The notes under the pieces are model-generated. The model did not search any database, was not told the origin of the DNA, and worked only from the letters and a program-made list of their open reading frames with translations. 64,000 nt of DNA from Candidatus Kaistella beijingensis (lineage in GTDB: Bacteria > Bacteroidota > Bacteroidia > Flavobacteriales > Weeksellaceae): NCBI RefSeq assembly GCF_020084865.1, contig NZ_CP071953.1, positions 124,001 to 188,000 on the forward strand, in the 5' to 3' direction. A program made the translations under genes and the position numbers. Below are positions 9,536 to 19,122 of this stretch, piece after piece (position 1 is the first letter of the stretch; every line of letters begins with the position of its first letter).

Positions 9536-9640
9536 GATACCTATAATATTCTAAAAATTAAGGGAAAGATTTTTGCGGAATCATTTGCAGAATTTTGTGA
9601 CTTCCAGCATCCATCTTCCGGCATCCCGCCAAAAAAAACC

Positions 9641-9648
9641 TATCTTTG
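9641..9648 (+). promoter_or_regulatory. TAnnTTTG promoter element that fixes the start of the pseudouridine synthase
   Basis: TATCTTTG lies 18 bases before the ATG at 9666. Transcription should begin near 9654, so the upstream GTG/ATG-type starts in the same frame (for example 9573) would not be in the message. Confidence 0.65.
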
Positions 9649-9665
9649 CAAAAATTTTTCAGACG

Positions 9666-10769
9666 ATGAGCCGAGACAACGATAAACCAAGAAGACCGAG
9701 AATTTCTTCTTCACGAACTTCAAAACCTTCTGCAGGAAGAACAAAACCTGCTGCTTCACGTGCTCCAAAATCTGAAGGTTCAGCGGAAAAAAAATCTGCA
9801 AAACCTGCAAGAGAACCAAGATTGATGTCGCAGTCGGAAGCTAAATCTTACGAAAAAAATTTCGAGAAAACCTCAAGAAAACCTGCAGGAAAAAGAACGG
9901 GAAAATCTTTTGATACAAGAGATAAATACGAAAAAGGAGACAGCAAATTCGGTCCTAAAAAACCATTCAAGAAATCTTTTGACCGAAATGATGATGCGGA
10001 AAGAACTCGTTCTTTTGTGCAAAAAAGAAGGTTCGACAAGCTTTCAAAAGAGGTTCCGAAAGAAACAATCCGACTCAATAAATACATCGCCAATTCGGGA
10101 ATCTGTTCAAGAAGAGAAGCAGACGAATTAATCACGCAAGGATTGGTTCAAGTCAATGGAAAAGTGGTGACAGAAATGGGTTATCAAGTTCAGAAAACCG
10201 ACAAAGTCATCTTTGATGGACAGGGAATTACGCCCGAAAAACCTGTTTACGTTTTGCTCAACAAACCAAAAGGGTATATCTCAACTACCAAGGACGAAAA
10301 AGCCAGAAAAACCGTGATGGATTTGGTGGCAAATGCTTCACCTTACCGCGTTTTTCCAGTGGGAAGATTGGACCGTTCCACAACAGGAGTGATTCTTTTA
10401 ACCAACGACGGACATTTAACCAAAAAGTTGACGCACCCTTCATTCAATATGAAGAAAATTTACCACGTCACTCTGGACAGAAAACTCGATAGAGCAGACT
10501 TAAACACTATTGCGGACGGAATCCGTTTGGAAGAAGGCGTTGCAGAAGTGGACAGTATTTCATACATCGACGGCAAACCGAAAAACGAAATCGGCATCGA
10601 AATCCACATCGGTTGGAATAGAGTGGTGCGCAGAATTTTCCAGAAGTTGGGTTATGAAGTCGAAGCACTCGACAGGGTGATGTTTGCAGGATTAACCAAG
10701 AAAAATATCAAACGCGGACACTGGAGAATCCTTACAGAATTGGAAGTGAATAATTTGAAAATGCTTTAA
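9666..10769 (+). CDS. rluB: rRNA pseudouridine synthase, RsuA/RluB family, with a long basic N-terminal tail
   Basis: 367 residues. The first 130 or so are low-complexity and rich in Arg, Lys, Ser and Pro (many KPA/KSF repeats), probably disordered and RNA-binding. An S4 domain follows (IRLNKYIANSGICSRREADE), then the catalytic domain with the family aspartate in GRLDRSTTGVILLTNDG and the KKIYHVTLD segment. It should make a pseudouridine in 23S rRNA; RluB versus RluE/F specificity is inferred from general similarity. The start at 9666 is chosen from the promoter at 9641. A strong terminator follows. Confidence 0.85.
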   Translation: MSRDNDKPRRPRISSSRTSKPSAGRTKPAASRAPKSEGSAEKKSAKPAREPRLMSQSEAKSYEKNFEKTSRKPAGKRTGKSFDTRDKYEKGDSKFGPKKPFKKSFDRNDDAERTRSFVQKRRFDKLSKEVPKETIRLNKYIANSGICSRREADELITQGLVQVNGKVVTEMGYQVQKTDKVIFDGQGITPEKPVYVLLNKPKGYISTTKDEKARKTVMDLVANASPYRVFPVGRLDRSTTGVILLTNDGHLTKKLTHPSFNMKKIYHVTLDRKLDRADLNTIADGIRLEEGVAEVDSISYIDGKPKNEIGIEIHIGWNRVVRRIFQKLGYEVEALDRVMFAGLTKKNIKRGHWRILTELEVNNLKML

Positions 10770-10926: not shown

Positions 10927-10958
10927 AAAAAAAAACTTCCCAAAATTTCGGGAAGTTT
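10927..10958 (-). terminator. Terminator of the six-gene minus-strand module
   Basis: Stem AAACTTCCC (10933-10941) with GGGAAGTTT (10950-10958); on the minus strand it is followed by a run of T (A run 10927-10935). It lies 22 bases beyond the last stop of the module. The same 26-base hairpin, with the loop inverted, is the isocitrate dehydrogenase terminator at 16841-16866. Confidence 0.85.
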
Positions 10959-10979: not shown

Positions 10980-11477
10980 TTAATTGTATAAGCTTCCCTC
11001 AATTTTTGGTGCGAAAAATTGGAGTACTTCTAAAACAAAAATATTTACCAGTAAGCTTAAGGAAATCATTAATATACTAAACAATATAAAGTATCCAAAC
11101 TGATTAAAACCAAATCGTTCCGTAATTTTTTCTTTTTCATAAATAAATTTCAGTAATGTTTGGGATAAAAAGTAACACATCAACAAAGTAAATATTCCAG
11201 TTCCTAAATGCAAGCAAATTTGCTGAAATAAAGAGGTAGTTGTAGATTTATTTGTGGATATTAAGTCGATCACCATATCTAAATGAGAAAAAACTTCTTT
11301 TCCGATTATGCCAATCGATAAAATAATTCCAGCAAGAATTAAATTGTAACCATTCAAATCATCTTTTTGAATTGCTGTTTTTCGATATTTTGCGGTTATT
11401 GATTTCGTAACGAAAATACTGATGAAAAAATAAATCAGAATTGAAATTCCGATGATAAAAAGTTTGTTATTGTCCAT
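10980..11477 (-). CDS. Four-helix membrane protein, DUF350-like
   Basis: 165 residues with four predicted membrane helices: LFIIGISILIYFFISIFVT, NLILAGIILSIGIIG, LGTGIFTLLMCYFLSQTLL and YFILFSILMISLSLLVNIFV. The segment IQKDDLNGYNLILAGIILSIGI resembles the DUF350 pattern in which an acidic/Asn turn precedes a glycine-rich helix; E. coli YjfL is in that family, and the match here is by eye only. It is the last gene of the six-gene module and overlaps the transglutaminase-like gene by 11 bases, which implies coupled translation. Its function is unknown; it may be the transport or anchoring part of a membrane complex. Confidence 0.7.
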   Translation of the reverse strand: MDNNKLFIIGISILIYFFISIFVTKSITAKYRKTAIQKDDLNGYNLILAGIILSIGIIGKEVFSHLDMVIDLISTNKSTTTSLFQQICLHLGTGIFTLLMCYFLSQTLLKFIYEKEKITERFGFNQFGYFILFSILMISLSLLVNIFVLEVLQFFAPKIEGSLYN

Positions 11478-13266
11478 TGTTTTTTGATTTTAAAGTTACG
11501 TCCCAATAATTTTGATTTGAGATTTCAAGTGGTAGAATTCCTGCTTCCTGAAAACTGGTTGTCTCCCAAACGGTATAATTTTTTCCGAAATAATTAAATT
11601 TTATTGCGTTTGAATTTTTATAAACTGCAATTATTGAATGTTGATAAATCTGACTTGTGAGTAACAATACCTCATACCCATAATGATCCAAAATAGTATA
11701 AATAAGCAGTGTTCTCGTATCACAATCACCCTTCAAATTTGCTAAAAATTCAACAGGTGAATTAATTCCTAGAGCTTGGTTTGGATCGCAACTGGCGCTT
11801 GCACCTGCAAAATAATCTTTTATATATTTTTCGCTATAAAGGTTTGGGTCACAGGCATTATCCAATACTAATGCATAGGGAATATCCTGCACAAAACTTA
11901 CAATAACATCAGCGAACTGATCATTATTGAGTTTTTTGTCAGCTCTAATTCCGTCAAACAAGGTGTAGAGATTTTCGATTTTACTTCTATCATTTTCTTT
12001 TAAGGAATGAATAAAATAGGCGTAATTATCTTGTGGAAGCTGTCTCTTTAATTGATGTGCTTGCCGAATGTCATTAAGTTTCAAGCTGTATTTTCCTTCA
12101 TAAATATTTCCTTTATAGTCCTTCCATTTTCTAAAATGAGTAATGATGCTATCAGGTTTGTTTGGCTCTTTCTTGTTCTCTATTTTTTCGACAACCGATT
12201 TTTCAAGAGAATCGTCTTTTATTATTTTAACAGGTATTGGATTATTAGCTTCTGAAATGCCTCTAAAAACTCCAGAAAATAATCCAATTAATAACAGAAT
12301 TGCTAAAATTGGAAAAATATACTTAAAAATTCCCTGTAAAAATTTGATAATGAGCCAAATAATTAAAAACGGAACAATATACAATAAATAGGGCGCAAAA
12401 ATAATAAGCAAAATTATTCCTAAAATTAACCATAAAATTGTACCGCATCCATATGAAGATGAACTCTCGGTCACCGTTTTCGTCTTCCAATCTCCCCAAT
12501 ATTTATGTTTTTTTCCTTCATACCAATATTCTTCGCGAAAAAAATTTCCTGACCGCTCAATATTTCCTGTCTTTATGTCGGATTTTACGAGTTCTTCACA
12601 TTCCCAATTTCCCCAATAAGTCTTTGTCTTGCATTCGCACCAATATTCTTTTCGGATGCAGTTTTCTTTAATTTCTTGGTTTCCGGTTGGTTCTAATGTG
12701 GGTTTGCAAATGTCAGGTTCGGTAATGTAGATTTTTTTTTCTACTACAGCGTCAACCTCATCTTTCACATAACCAAAAATTTCACCTTCTATCACGCCAA
12801 AAGATTCATTGCCATCGGTTTGTTGTAGTTTTTGAGAAATTTTTCTTTGATCCGTGAATTGAGGATCATGGATATTGATCTGATACTGGTCTGAACCATT
12901 TTTTAAAGAGGTGGATAGTAATTCGGGAAGTTTATCCTTTGGAAAGAATTTGCTTTTTTCATAATTTGGCTCAAATTCCAATTTTTCCACATTCGTAATT
13001 TGAGACTCGTAAATTTCAAAACGAAAATATTTGGAGTGAGTGTCTTCATAATCGTAGAAACCTCTGTATTTTCCTTTTAAAATGCCAGAAATATGTGTTC
13101 TGCGCTCCTCCTTTCCCCAATATTGGATGAGGTAATATTTACCGCCATGATCTTCCATAATATCGGAAGTATGGATAATTTCAGCAGGTATTTCTTCTGC
13201 AGTCGACTTTTCTGCGGAAGTAAAACTTTTATTTTTCTTATTTTTAAAGAAGTTAAACAAAATCAA
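11467..13266 (-). CDS. Membrane-anchored transglutaminase-like protein
   Basis: 599 residues. Residues 1-200 are a soluble region with no family I recognise. Two copies of a Trp/Tyr-rich motif follow: RKEYWCECKTKTYWGNW (about 205-221) and REEYWYEGKKHKYWGDW (about 244-260). Two or three membrane helices span about 275-335. The C-terminal domain has the transglutaminase/cysteine-protease arrangement: Cys515 in LKGDCDTRTLL, His543 in YQHSIIAVY and an acidic partner at Glu568 in VWETTSF. Such folds cleave or cross-link peptides, or attach amines. The gene overlaps its neighbours by 4 and 11 bases, so its substrate is probably handled by the module's other proteins. Confidence 0.75.
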   Translation of the reverse strand: MILFNFFKNKKNKSFTSAEKSTAEEIPAEIIHTSDIMEDHGGKYYLIQYWGKEERRTHISGILKGKYRGFYDYEDTHSKYFRFEIYESQITNVEKLEFEPNYEKSKFFPKDKLPELLSTSLKNGSDQYQINIHDPQFTDQRKISQKLQQTDGNESFGVIEGEIFGYVKDEVDAVVEKKIYITEPDICKPTLEPTGNQEIKENCIRKEYWCECKTKTYWGNWECEELVKSDIKTGNIERSGNFFREEYWYEGKKHKYWGDWKTKTVTESSSSYGCGTILWLILGIILLIIFAPYLLYIVPFLIIWLIIKFLQGIFKYIFPILAILLLIGLFSGVFRGISEANNPIPVKIIKDDSLEKSVVEKIENKKEPNKPDSIITHFRKWKDYKGNIYEGKYSLKLNDIRQAHQLKRQLPQDNYAYFIHSLKENDRSKIENLYTLFDGIRADKKLNNDQFADVIVSFVQDIPYALVLDNACDPNLYSEKYIKDYFAGASASCDPNQALGINSPVEFLANLKGDCDTRTLLIYTILDHYGYEVLLLTSQIYQHSIIAVYKNSNAIKFNYFGKNYTVWETTSFQEAGILPLEISNQNYWDVTLKSKNNGQ

Positions 13267-14642
13267 TCGTCTTTATTGCCATATATAAATTCCAAGAATT
13301 GTTTTTCGGTTTTATATACAGTATTTCTTATTGTTTTTTGTGTTCGGAAAGGCGGATTCTTCCAGAACTGATATTTGTCGCGAAAAAGTTCAGAAATTTC
13401 TTCTTTTAATTCCAAACGAAGTTTTTCCGATTTTTCAACGTTATGAATTCTAATTCTTTCTAACTGAATTTCAAGATTTTGTTTCAGATCTGCATTTAAA
13501 GAAAGTAGTTTTTCGGTGAGAATTTTTTTGTAGGTTTCAAGGTGTTTTTCGTAGTTTTCCTGCACAAATTTCAATTCAATATTTTGTTTGGTCTTGAAAA
13601 ATTCTGTTGTTTTCCCAATTCTATACTTGATGTAAATTGGAAGCGAAAAAATCATGATGGATAAGAAGCTGATCAGCCAAGACACTGGATTTTCTGCTAA
13701 AATAGTCCGCATTGTAGTGACGTAAAAATTGCTTTTTTCAATCAGAGCATCCAATTTTTGAAAACGCTCGGTTTTTTCCTGTAATACTTCTGTCATGCTT
13801 TTTTTATAAATATCGAAGTCTGATTTCAGAAAATTGTCCGCGAAATGGATGGTTTCTATACTCTGCAAAAATTCGGAATCATCGCTTTTTTCTTTGTCCA
13901 AAAGATTTAGAATTTCATCGTAAATAAAATCAAATTTTTCCTGATTTTTTTTGCTGAACGGAAGAGACTTCAGTTTTAGCAAATTCCGTCTTAATTCTCC
14001 TCCATATTGCAATGTATTCACATCTGCATCTACTTTATTATCTATAAGCATAAAGGAATTTTTGAGCACAGCGGAATCACTTTTGGGAAGAAGCCGGCTT
14101 CTTTCTGCAAATTTTTCCTTGAATGTAAGTTCCTTCTTTACAAACAGTGAGTCTGCGCTTAAAGCTTCATTTAACTTGAATTCAATCTTATATTTCTCAA
14201 CCGTTCTTTCCGAGAATTGTTTCAGTAAAAGCACGTTCAAAGGTTGGGCAACAATTATTGCCAAGAAAATAATAAATGCTAATCTTAAAAAAAATGAAAT
14301 GTTGTAATCGAATTTTAAAGGTTCGATTTCACCAATGATTTTATTTTTCTTTTTTTTGGGTGTTGGTAAAAGTATCGGTGTAATCGTGTAAATTAAGAAA
14401 ACGTAAATCGTTGCAATCAGCAATCCCCAAAATACGCCAACCGGAGCCGAAAGAAAAATATTACCATCGAAAGAATTATATAGAAATGAAAATGAACTTA
14501 CAAAACAGAGCATAAAGATAACAAACACAAACACGCCGATTCCTACAAAAGCGGAGCTCGTTCGGCTTCTTTTGATAATTTGAAAATCTTCTCCAGAGAA
14601 TTTCAGAAAAAAATCGTGAAAACTACTGTTCTTTTGACTCAC
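13263..14642 (-). CDS. DUF4407-like membrane protein with long coiled coil (divergent copy)
   Basis: 459 residues. Its plan is that of the upstream DUF4407 protein: a short N-terminal FSGEDFQIIKR segment, two membrane helices (about 30-55 and 65-95), a third helix ending in IIVAQPLNVLL (about 120-145), a long charged coiled coil (about 145-310), a fourth helix (VSWLISFLSIMIFSLPIYI) and a second coiled coil to the C-terminus. It is more diverged and may be missed by domain searches. It overlaps the transglutaminase-like gene by 4 bases and follows the DUF4407 gene after 2 bases. The two copies may form a hetero-oligomer. Function unknown. Confidence 0.7.
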   Translation of the reverse strand: MSQKNSSFHDFFLKFSGEDFQIIKRSRTSSAFVGIGVFVFVIFMLCFVSSFSFLYNSFDGNIFLSAPVGVFWGLLIATIYVFLIYTITPILLPTPKKKKNKIIGEIEPLKFDYNISFFLRLAFIIFLAIIVAQPLNVLLLKQFSERTVEKYKIEFKLNEALSADSLFVKKELTFKEKFAERSRLLPKSDSAVLKNSFMLIDNKVDADVNTLQYGGELRRNLLKLKSLPFSKKNQEKFDFIYDEILNLLDKEKSDDSEFLQSIETIHFADNFLKSDFDIYKKSMTEVLQEKTERFQKLDALIEKSNFYVTTMRTILAENPVSWLISFLSIMIFSLPIYIKYRIGKTTEFFKTKQNIELKFVQENYEKHLETYKKILTEKLLSLNADLKQNLEIQLERIRIHNVEKSEKLRLELKEEISELFRDKYQFWKNPPFRTQKTIRNTVYKTEKQFLEFIYGNKDD

Positions 14643-14644
14643 AA

Positions 14645-15886
14645 TTAAACTTCTTTGATATACAATTCTGGGTTTTCGTCAATTTTTTCTTTTTCTCTTT
14701 CCTTGTATTTATCTACGGCGTATTGCGTGAGTTCTTTTTGGATTTCCGCAATTTTTACTTTTTCAAATTTTTGCTTGTCGGCTTCATGGTTTATGACAAG
14801 GTGTCTTTCCAAACCTTCCTTGTCCTTATAAAAATCATAGCGAACTTCTATTCCGTTTTCTGCAAGTTTCATTTCGTTTCGGTTTTCATACAAATAATCG
14901 TACGGAGATTTAATAAGCATCATTTTAAAGAAAATAGGAGTGAGCTCAATTGCCAAAAATAGGAGTGTTATAAATAATGTGATGGTTGTTCCAGCAACTT
15001 CGTGAGCTTTTTTGATCCGAATAAGGAGACCATCTAAACTTGCTCCTTTTCTTTTTGCATCATCAATATCCTGTTTATATTTATCTTCGAGTTCAGCTTT
15101 GTCTTTTTCCGCTTTTTTGAATTCTGAAGTGTTTTTTAGTTCTGCAATTTTTGCCTCGGTTTCTTTTTTTAGCCTTTCAAACTGCGTTGCTCTAGGTCCG
15201 TAATCCGCACCGTTTCCCGATTTTCCCGAAATTTCATTGGATAGATTTTCGGAATATTCTGTTTGAAGTTTTTGCAAAGCATCAATATCCATTTGTATTT
15301 TTCCAAGATTTTTTTCGGTTTGTGCAATTCCTTTTTTAAAATTTACTTCCGCAAGCGAAATTAGATTGGCTTTTTCTTTTTCCTGTTCTTTTTGGATTTC
15401 CAAATCAATTTCAGTTTTAAACATCCTTATTTCGACAGGTTTTGAAATCGAAATCGCAATGATACATCCCATAATAATTCTTGGGAGAGAACTCTTGAAT
15501 TCCTGCATAGTAATTGCTTCCGTTCCGTCGCCTTTTCCTGTGCTGGTTACAATAAACCGGTCGATATTGTAAATCATCAATCCCCAAAGTATTCCAAAAA
15601 CGACAGATAAAATTACTGTAGGATAATGAATTGGAATTTCAGTTGCATTCACAACCTGCATTTTATTCAGCACACTGTCAGTTTTCGGTGAAAAAATGGT
15701 GTAGAAAGCATAACCTCCTGAAAGTGAGGCCATAATTCCGGTTGCCAAAACAATTCCGCCCATACAGAAATACTTTACCTGGTCAGAATAAGTTGCTCTT
15801 TCAAGCAGAAAAGTATCTCCGCCTGCACATTCCCACATAAATTTCATAAGTTTCCCGGCTTTTGGAGTAGTGTAATTTTCCATCAT
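14645..15886 (-). CDS. DUF4407 domain membrane protein
   Basis: 413 residues matching the DUF4407 pattern: N-terminal CAGGDTFLLERATYSDQVKY, helices VLATGIMASLSGGYAFYTIF and VVFGILWGLMIYNIDRFIV with the family's IYNIDRF signature, a third helix with ISISKPVEIRMF, a long coiled coil (about 165-280) and a final helix (ITLFITLLFLAIELTPIFFKM) with a charged tail. DUF4407 proteins have no established role. The coiled coil between helices 3 and 4 probably forms a soluble stalk. The gene overlaps the upstream gene by 4 bases and sits 2 bases before the divergent copy. Confidence 0.85.
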   Translation of the reverse strand: MMENYTTPKAGKLMKFMWECAGGDTFLLERATYSDQVKYFCMGGIVLATGIMASLSGGYAFYTIFSPKTDSVLNKMQVVNATEIPIHYPTVILSVVFGILWGLMIYNIDRFIVTSTGKGDGTEAITMQEFKSSLPRIIMGCIIAISISKPVEIRMFKTEIDLEIQKEQEKEKANLISLAEVNFKKGIAQTEKNLGKIQMDIDALQKLQTEYSENLSNEISGKSGNGADYGPRATQFERLKKETEAKIAELKNTSEFKKAEKDKAELEDKYKQDIDDAKRKGASLDGLLIRIKKAHEVAGTTITLFITLLFLAIELTPIFFKMMLIKSPYDYLYENRNEMKLAENGIEVRYDFYKDKEGLERHLVINHEADKQKFEKVKIAEIQKELTQYAVDKYKEREKEKIDENPELYIKEV

Positions 15887-16431
15887 ATAAAATCGGTTTT
15901 GTTAAATTCTTTAGGATTAAATTTTATAGTTTTTAAGTTTAATTGTGGTTGTTTTTTATCAAAAAAAATGGGTTTAAATTCCATTTCAATTTTCGGAGTT
16001 TCCTGATTTTTTTTCATTTGTAGCTGAAGATTTTTAAAGCTATTTTTAAATTCGACGTTAAATTTTTCTGACGAAATTTCTTCTTCAACATTTACTTCGA
16101 AAGCTAAAGTTTTCTTTTCTTTAGATCCATGAATAATTAGGATAATTTCTTTGAGATTACTATTGATTATCTCAATAATTTCCGCATTTACTGATTTATG
16201 AATATTTACGACTTCATAATAAATCGCATTTTGAAAATTATAAGAAAGTGTGAAAATCGATTTGTCAAATACGTATTTGTTCGAAAAATAAAGATCAATT
16301 TCTTTTAGATTTTTATTCTTTTTAAAAACTAATTTCAATTTGCGCCACGAAATTATCACCCAAAATTTTAGTAATTCAAGAGACTTTCTCAAAAAATCAG
16401 TAAAAACAAAATATTTGAAAAAATAATTCAT
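15883..16431 (-). CDS. Hypothetical protein, second gene of the module
   Basis: 182 residues, very Lys/Ile/Phe-rich and encoded by notably AT-rich DNA. The N-terminus has a hydrophobic and basic stretch (FTDFLRKSLELLKFWVIISW) that may bind or enter the membrane; the rest reads as beta-rich soluble protein (SIFTLSYNFQNAIYYEVV, AEIIEIINSNLKEIILII). I recognise no family. It overlaps both neighbours by 4 bases (ATGA-type junctions), so it is an integral member of the six-gene operon. Confidence 0.6.
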   Translation of the reverse strand: MNYFFKYFVFTDFLRKSLELLKFWVIISWRKLKLVFKKNKNLKEIDLYFSNKYVFDKSIFTLSYNFQNAIYYEVVNIHKSVNAEIIEIINSNLKEIILIIHGSKEKKTLAFEVNVEEEISSEKFNVEFKNSFKNLQLQMKKNQETPKIEMEFKPIFFDKKQPQLNLKTIKFNPKEFNKTDFI

Positions 16432-16712
16432 TTGGTTAAAGTAGCTTTTGCTAAAAATACAGTACCAGCAATGAAATCAATTATTATCCAAGCTGTTTTT
16501 TGATGCAGATAAACAGGAAATAACGGATTAAAAAGTAAAAGCATAATTCCGAAAATGATGTTCCAGAAATCAATGCCGTTTTTTTGGTTTTTGAAAATGA
16601 AGATTATTGAAGATGTGGAAACTGCGAGCCGCAAAAATGTGTAGAAACCATAAGGCAACGAAAAAATTCCCATAAAACAAATAATCCCTGTAATTAATTG
16701 TATATTCTTCAA
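16428..16712 (-). CDS. Small integral membrane protein, first gene of the module
   Basis: 94 residues with three or four membrane helices: IQLITGIICFMGIFSL, FLRLAVSTSSIIFIF, IIFGIMLLLFNPLFPVYL and AWIIIDFIAGTVFLA. The pattern LPYGFYTFLRLAV followed by NPLFPVYL resembles small Bacteroidota proteins of the DUF6804 type, though I cannot confirm this. It opens the operon behind the promoter at 16733-16761. A structural or stabilising role in a membrane complex is a guess. Confidence 0.6.
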   Translation of the reverse strand: MKNIQLITGIICFMGIFSLPYGFYTFLRLAVSTSSIIFIFKNQKNGIDFWNIIFGIMLLLFNPLFPVYLHQKTAWIIIDFIAGTVFLAKATLTK

Positions 16713-16732: not shown

Positions 16733-16761
16733 CAAAATTAAAAATTTTCTTAAAAAAACAA
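16733..16761 (-). promoter_or_regulatory. Promoter of the six-gene module
   Basis: Read on the minus strand, TTG (16761-16759), 18 bases and TAATTTTG (16740-16733) match the Bacteroidota -33/-7 promoter layout. Transcription should start near 16726, about 14 bases before the first ATG. Confidence 0.6.
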
Positions 16762-16836
16762 CAATAATTCTTAAAATTTTCTTAACAATTAATTATGTAA
16801 TAAATATAATTGTTTTTTTAGGCTTTGAGATTTCAT

Positions 16837-16866
16837 AAAAAAACTTCCCGAAATTTTGGGAAGTTT
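16837..16866 (-). terminator. Terminator of isocitrate dehydrogenase
   Basis: Stem AAACTTCCC (16841-16849) with GGGAAGTTT (16858-16866), followed on the minus strand by a run of T (A run 16837-16843). It nearly duplicates the hairpin at 10933-10958. Confidence 0.85.

Positions 16867-16896: not shown

Positions 16897-19122
<2,226 letters not shown>

Follow-up and report, generated by a model that had tools for sequence, protein, structure and literature searches.

In the LapD-LapG system, a membrane receptor gates a periplasmic transglutaminase-like protease (excerpts of PMC4359373), and in HvyA, another transglutaminase-like enzyme, the catalytic residues are required for function (excerpts of PMC4241560). 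DUF350 (YjfL) membrane proteins are encoded with beta-strand-rich proteins in operons of the phage shock protein (PSP) network (excerpts of PMC11237479). Here we describe a module of six minus-strand genes (A to F) in a 64,000-nucleotide stretch of the Candidatus Kaistella beijingensis genome (contig NZ_CP071953.1, positions 124,001 to 188,000; hereafter the window), in which two DUF4407 proteins (C and D) and a DUF350-like protein (F) are encoded with a membrane protein that carries a C-terminal transglutaminase-fold domain (E). The likeness to LapD-LapG, seen in the best VIA-align rows, lies in a transglutaminase-like fold with a Cys-His-acid triad and in the proposed control from the inner membrane (excerpts of PMC4359373), but E is itself a membrane protein, its third triad residue is Glu, and its partners are DUF4407 and DUF350-like proteins. 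With this Glu and its fusion to membrane helices, E does not fit the LapG/BTLCP family (Cys-His-Asp, soluble exported). No LapD-type receptor was seen in the operon, LapD and GGDEF/EAL genes not having been searched for. Among worked-out systems, LapD-LapG comes nearest to the module in its logic. HvyA is likewise a predicted envelope-side enzyme but is soluble and exported, has a Cys-His-Asp triad and lacks DUF4407 or DUF350 partners, as far as the excerpts of PMC4241560 describe it. We found no description of the present gene set in the literature searched, in which DUF4407 was merely listed in tables and DUF6804, the family of protein A, was not mentioned.

The gene set is conserved, in the same order, in distant genomes of the Bacteroidota. 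A protein search with E returned 96 relatives, 34 of which were aligned, and this alignment led to 45 genome loci, which we compared by open reading frame (ORF) calling and clustering. A DUF350-like gene lay no more than 100 bases from the E relative in 45/45 loci, and two DUF4407 genes preceded the E relative, in the same order, in 36 of them. Three other loci (L027, L030 and L045) contained one DUF4407 gene and a fourth (L048) contained none, all four beginning at a contig end; in the last five (L056-L060), also with no DUF4407 gene, a short E relative was paired with the DUF350-like gene only. Among the families with loci were eight of the Bacteroidota: Flavobacteriaceae, Weeksellaceae, Crocinitomicaceae, Sphingobacteriaceae, Chitinophagaceae, Saprospiraceae, Leadbetterellaceae and Hymenobacteraceae. 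Nine of ten further stretches with an E relative, two of which duplicate earlier loci (L052 comes from G027, and G041 and L017 share one sequence), held a DUF350-like gene by profile, and in the tenth (L138) a 162-amino-acid neighbour of the E relative gave a weak profile match (62.7%). The pair is adjacent in G234, G387 and G479 too, with the DUF350 gene ahead of the E relative. In an eleventh stretch (G115), which had given a weak E-profile match, no E relative was seen. Because the order recurs in distant genomes and is not restricted to close relatives, the set is more than a chance arrangement, which bears out the initial annotation in its reading of the two DUF4407 genes, the transglutaminase-fold gene and the DUF350-like gene as a system. 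No unit of the module is older or more constant than the fixed E-F pair; the main clade has gained the DUF4407 pair and B, while J domains, two-component genes and nucleases have joined locally. A constant core with changing additions fits an enzyme under membrane control whose inputs and outputs change. In one genome (G136, L137 5276-6577), an OmpA-domain membrane protein (77 bits) was encoded between D and E.

E consists of a beta-rich N-terminal region, a helical membrane segment (model residues 274-336) and the C-terminal domain, the predicted transglutaminase fold covering residues 367-597. Within this fold E carries the Cys-His-Asp/Glu triad of the transglutaminase-like superfamily (PF01841) as C515, H543 and E568, the intact set to which the initial annotation had pointed, and the triad was kept in 57/57 rows of one E alignment; the sole exception, P0056 with Gly at the Glu position, came from a separate alignment. 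In its predicted fold, E is similar to cysteine hydrolases of the transglutaminase/LapG type. The window's E gave no PF01841 match, the best-scoring relative (L139) reached 21.1 bits (E-value 3.9e-4), below the curated cut-off of 23, and no model in Pfam, NCBIfam or PADLOC gives the protein a name. In Halpernia frigidisoli (L017 9001-10774, G041:C2) the E relative is split into two frames of 258 and 316 amino acids and is therefore probably broken, and the E relatives of L031 and L033 also look interrupted.

We believe that the transglutaminase-fold domain of E probably lies on the envelope side of the membrane. Cys472 and Cys493 were both present in 54/57 rows, and the three remaining rows had neither of them nor the loop. 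Since the two residues are lost jointly with the loop, they behave as a disulfide would, which counts for the envelope side, as do the basic N-termini that precede a single helix in L095 and L096. J domains fused at the N-terminal part of E in 8/45 loci and in G347, together with a separate DnaJ gene adjoining the module in L055, count for a cytoplasmic N-terminal part. Two features weigh against this topology: AlphaFold draws an even number of helices in E, two (274-307 and 309-336), and the segment following the last helix is basic as well.

The presence of two DUF4407 proteins, proposed at the outset, was confirmed with PF14362 (cut-off 31.3 bits). C matched across its length (198.7 bits), D matched at profile positions 7-103 of 297 only (48.6 bits), and a profile comparison between them (99.6% probability) makes D a divergent relative of C. 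C is the most conserved part of the module, with a mean column identity of 59% (29 rows). Its model, of moderate confidence (predicted local distance difference test score, pLDDT, 72.5), has four long membrane helices (33-65, 88-115, 134-155 and 287-323) with a coiled coil (157-283) between the third and the fourth; structure comparison with this model gave no telling fold match. Stand-alone DUF4407 genes belong to the same Pfam family as C but, in the 31 loci compared, were mostly single copy, with varying neighbours and no adjoining transglutaminase-fold gene. The window's genome has a third DUF4407 gene of this stand-alone kind (G000:C1:2424646-2425527, L013), beside an ORF named ruvC-like by eye. 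A DUF4407-like stretch is also encoded in 15 megaphage records (Prevotella phages Lak-A1 to Lak-C1, e.g. MK250019.1 485076-485693), with ~30% identity to C across half its length.

Protein A is a member of DUF6804 (PF20619, 78.7 bits; curated cut-off 27), a family found upstream or downstream of the module in 13/45 loci. B, like E, gave no convincing Pfam family match; it has an amphipathic start followed by beta-rich sequence and no clear membrane helix by eye, which agrees with the initial count of membrane helices in five of the six proteins. Clusters of B or of a Pedobacter-type counterpart occurred in 31/45 loci. F scored 24.2 bits against DUF350 (PF03994; E-value 3.9e-5), just below the curated cut-off of 26, and we therefore call it DUF350-like. 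Its family is continuous with DUF350, 15/31 family rows matching at E-value <= 0.1 (best 2.2e-13), and the L139 relative matched DUF350 at 74.1 bits.

The module is accessory, and its distribution is patchy. An E relative was present in 6/100 relatives and in 4/36 congeners, the window's genome included in both counts. The module is flanked by ORF 9573-10769 (+), which we take to be pseudouridine-synthase-like, and by ORF 16897-19113 (-), presumably isocitrate-dehydrogenase-like. The latter gene was found in 36/36 congeners; in the 29 other congener loci, the former lay within 1.5 kb of it in 9 and was unseen in 20. In two congeners (L089 and L090) the flanking genes are adjacent, ~140 and 85 bases apart with one hairpin between them, so that the site is empty, and in seven more (L068, L071, L075, L076, L079, L080 and L083) they are separated by other sequence of 0.3 to 1.4 kb. 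The suspected accessory insert between housekeeping genes was thus upheld. In the E tree, the window's E groups with Halpernia/G041 and UBA1937 (100/100), the other three congeners fall in a different clade (100/100), and support for uniting these two clades is weak (87/61); the congener carriers represent two deeply separate lineages. In the phylum sample of 392 Bacteroidota genomes, the E profile matched 8 (one, G115, unconfirmed), a lower bound because the first stage of the search scored three candidates per genome, whereas DUF4407 matched in 144 and exceeded its cut-off in 118. The module therefore puts a widespread family to an uncommon, specialised use. We conclude that the system is genuine and that it is accessory.

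Tentatively, and with rather less than even confidence, we favour a conserved inner-membrane complex that keeps an envelope-facing transglutaminase-fold hydrolase under the control of its DUF4407 and DUF350 proteins. E would be the envelope-side cysteine hydrolase (or transamidase), with a cytoplasmic beta-rich domain that in some relatives follows a J domain, and F would be its obligate membrane partner. C and D may act as sensor and transmitter, with the coiled coil between membrane helices 3 and 4. Upon a disturbance of the envelope, the complex would free the hydrolase for action on a substrate in the envelope, much as LapD gates the periplasmic protease LapG, and the whole might serve as an accessory device for surveillance or for repair and defence.

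An alternative is a defence against phage or foreign DNA, in which the membrane complex would sense a breach of the envelope and the cysteine enzyme and nuclease partners would stop the infection. With neighbour families assigned by Pfam on cluster representatives, HSDR_N-class (PD-(D/E)XK-like) genes were found in 15/45 loci, SNase genes in 8, secreted-type Exo_endo_phos genes in 7 and any of the three in 22; HSDR_N lay within three same-strand genes of the core in 13 loci and SNase in 8. In 22 hand-picked genomes of the 45, HSDR_N occurred in the locus in 14 and SNase in 7, far above the 0.27 and 0.06 under random placement, but these genomes hold 14/15 HSDR_N loci and the carriers are related, clustering in clades, so that the size of the ratio is trustworthy and its exact value is not; the fair rate is 15/45. 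None of these nuclease genes lies beside the module in the window's genome, G014, G017 or G027 (in G027 the nearest HSDR_N match is ~8 kb away, in a 1010-amino-acid frame), which argues against a necessary role. Patchy, accessory distribution also favours defence, but E and C gave no plasmid match, none of the six window proteins matched PADLOC 2.0.0 at E-value <= 1, and none exceeded an NCBIfam cut-off. Among the matches listed (25/103 families; 135/345 neighbours scanned), some neighbours did match PADLOC models, including Type I specificity, AbiEii and CARF_2OG, but these matches come without a control set. The parts examined showed no toxin-like partner. Taken together, we regard defence as possible but doubtful. 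Slightly more doubtful is the combined version, an accessory immune or surveillance system in which an inner-membrane DUF4407/DUF350 guard would sense envelope breach (e.g. by incoming phage DNA) and switch on the envelope-side cysteine enzyme, nuclease and two-component partners having been added in many lineages. A gene downstream of the module in two Flavobacterium loci (L021 12614-14803 and L025 12607-14796) encodes a protein that combines GIY-YIG nuclease, Schlafen-type helicase and S24 peptidase domains; the domains were tested in L021, and the L025 protein belongs to the same cluster.

It is unlikely, in our view, that the module is a stress module of the DUF350 network that adjusts the membrane while the enzyme attaches or removes amines. 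According to the excerpts of PMC11237479, DUF350 (YjfL) occurs in PspA-CesT/Tir operons and in polyamine operons, alongside an intracellular beta-rich protein, an arrangement that the present module recalls, and histidine kinase and response regulator genes, both present in 13/45 loci, point the same way, as do the J domains. The N-terminal part of E, however, is unrelated to DUF4178 (hhalign 0.9%, six-row alignment). PspA/CesT and polyamine enzymes were absent among the 25 listed Pfam families (135/345 neighbours), and no polyamine gene was noticed in the parts examined, the PspA and polyamine families not having been searched singly; the two-component pair does not occur near the module in the window's genome or in three carriers of the same genus. 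A separate DUF4178 protein (488 amino acids) is encoded elsewhere in the window's genome (G000:C1:2280067-2281813, L134 and L136), adjoining a DUF350 match with one internal stop, and this locus is similar to DUF350 operons known alongside PSP genes. Very unlikely is a cell-wall enzyme, whose transglutaminase-fold domain would cut or edit peptidoglycan peptides while the coiled coils held it near the wall.

The six minus-strand genes of the initial annotation were found again, and so were a promoter-like site before them and a terminator-like hairpin after them (Table 1). The ORFs span 16712 down to 10980 and overlap or nearly touch, by 4 bases at A/B, B/C and D/E and by 11 bases at E/F, with a gap of 2 bases at C/D, and they look like one operon. 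The start codons of A and E, both TTG, are uncertain. The promoter-like site, ~20 bases 5' of A, consists of TTG, a spacer of 18 or 21 bases and TAATTTTG (16764 or 16761 to 16733), a pattern that we take to be the Bacteroidota promoter consensus; it is weak evidence, with 22 matches in the window (both strands) compared to 9.15 on average in mononucleotide shuffles. Each end of the module bears one of two near-identical 26-base palindromes, a pattern with two exact copies and one copy with 3 mismatches in the 2.8-Mb genome. Since many congeners have a similar hairpin after their isocitrate-dehydrogenase-like gene, a copied terminator and a common terminator type are both possible.

Table 1. 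Features of the six-gene module, in window positions
Feature	Position	Strand	Description
Gene A	16428..16712	-	DUF6804 small membrane protein, 94 amino acids, TTG start (uncertain); Pfam PF20619
Gene B	15883..16431	-	182 amino acids, without family; basic amphipathic start, then beta-rich
Gene C	14645..15886	-	DUF4407, 413 amino acids; PF14362
Gene D	13263..14642	-	Second, divergent DUF4407 protein, 459 amino acids; PF14362 partial
Gene E	11467..13266	-	Membrane protein with C-terminal transglutaminase-fold domain, 599 amino acids
Gene F	10980..11477	-	DUF350-like membrane protein, 165 amino acids; PF03994
Promoter-like site	16733..16764	-	TTG ... TAATTTTG upstream of A
Terminator-like 26-base palindrome (hairpin)	10933..10958	-	3' of F
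Terminator-like 26-base palindrome, near-identical copy	16841..16866	-	3' of isocitrate-dehydrogenase-like gene, on the module's other side

The module looks like an optional device for envelope surveillance or defence, not a housekeeping one. With it, DUF4407 gains its first conserved enzymatic partner set and the DUF350-like proteins gain a fixed enzyme partner, and both families thereby become testable. If E faces the envelope, the tentatively favoured DUF4407/DUF350 complex would represent a new way of inner-membrane control over a transglutaminase-fold hydrolase.
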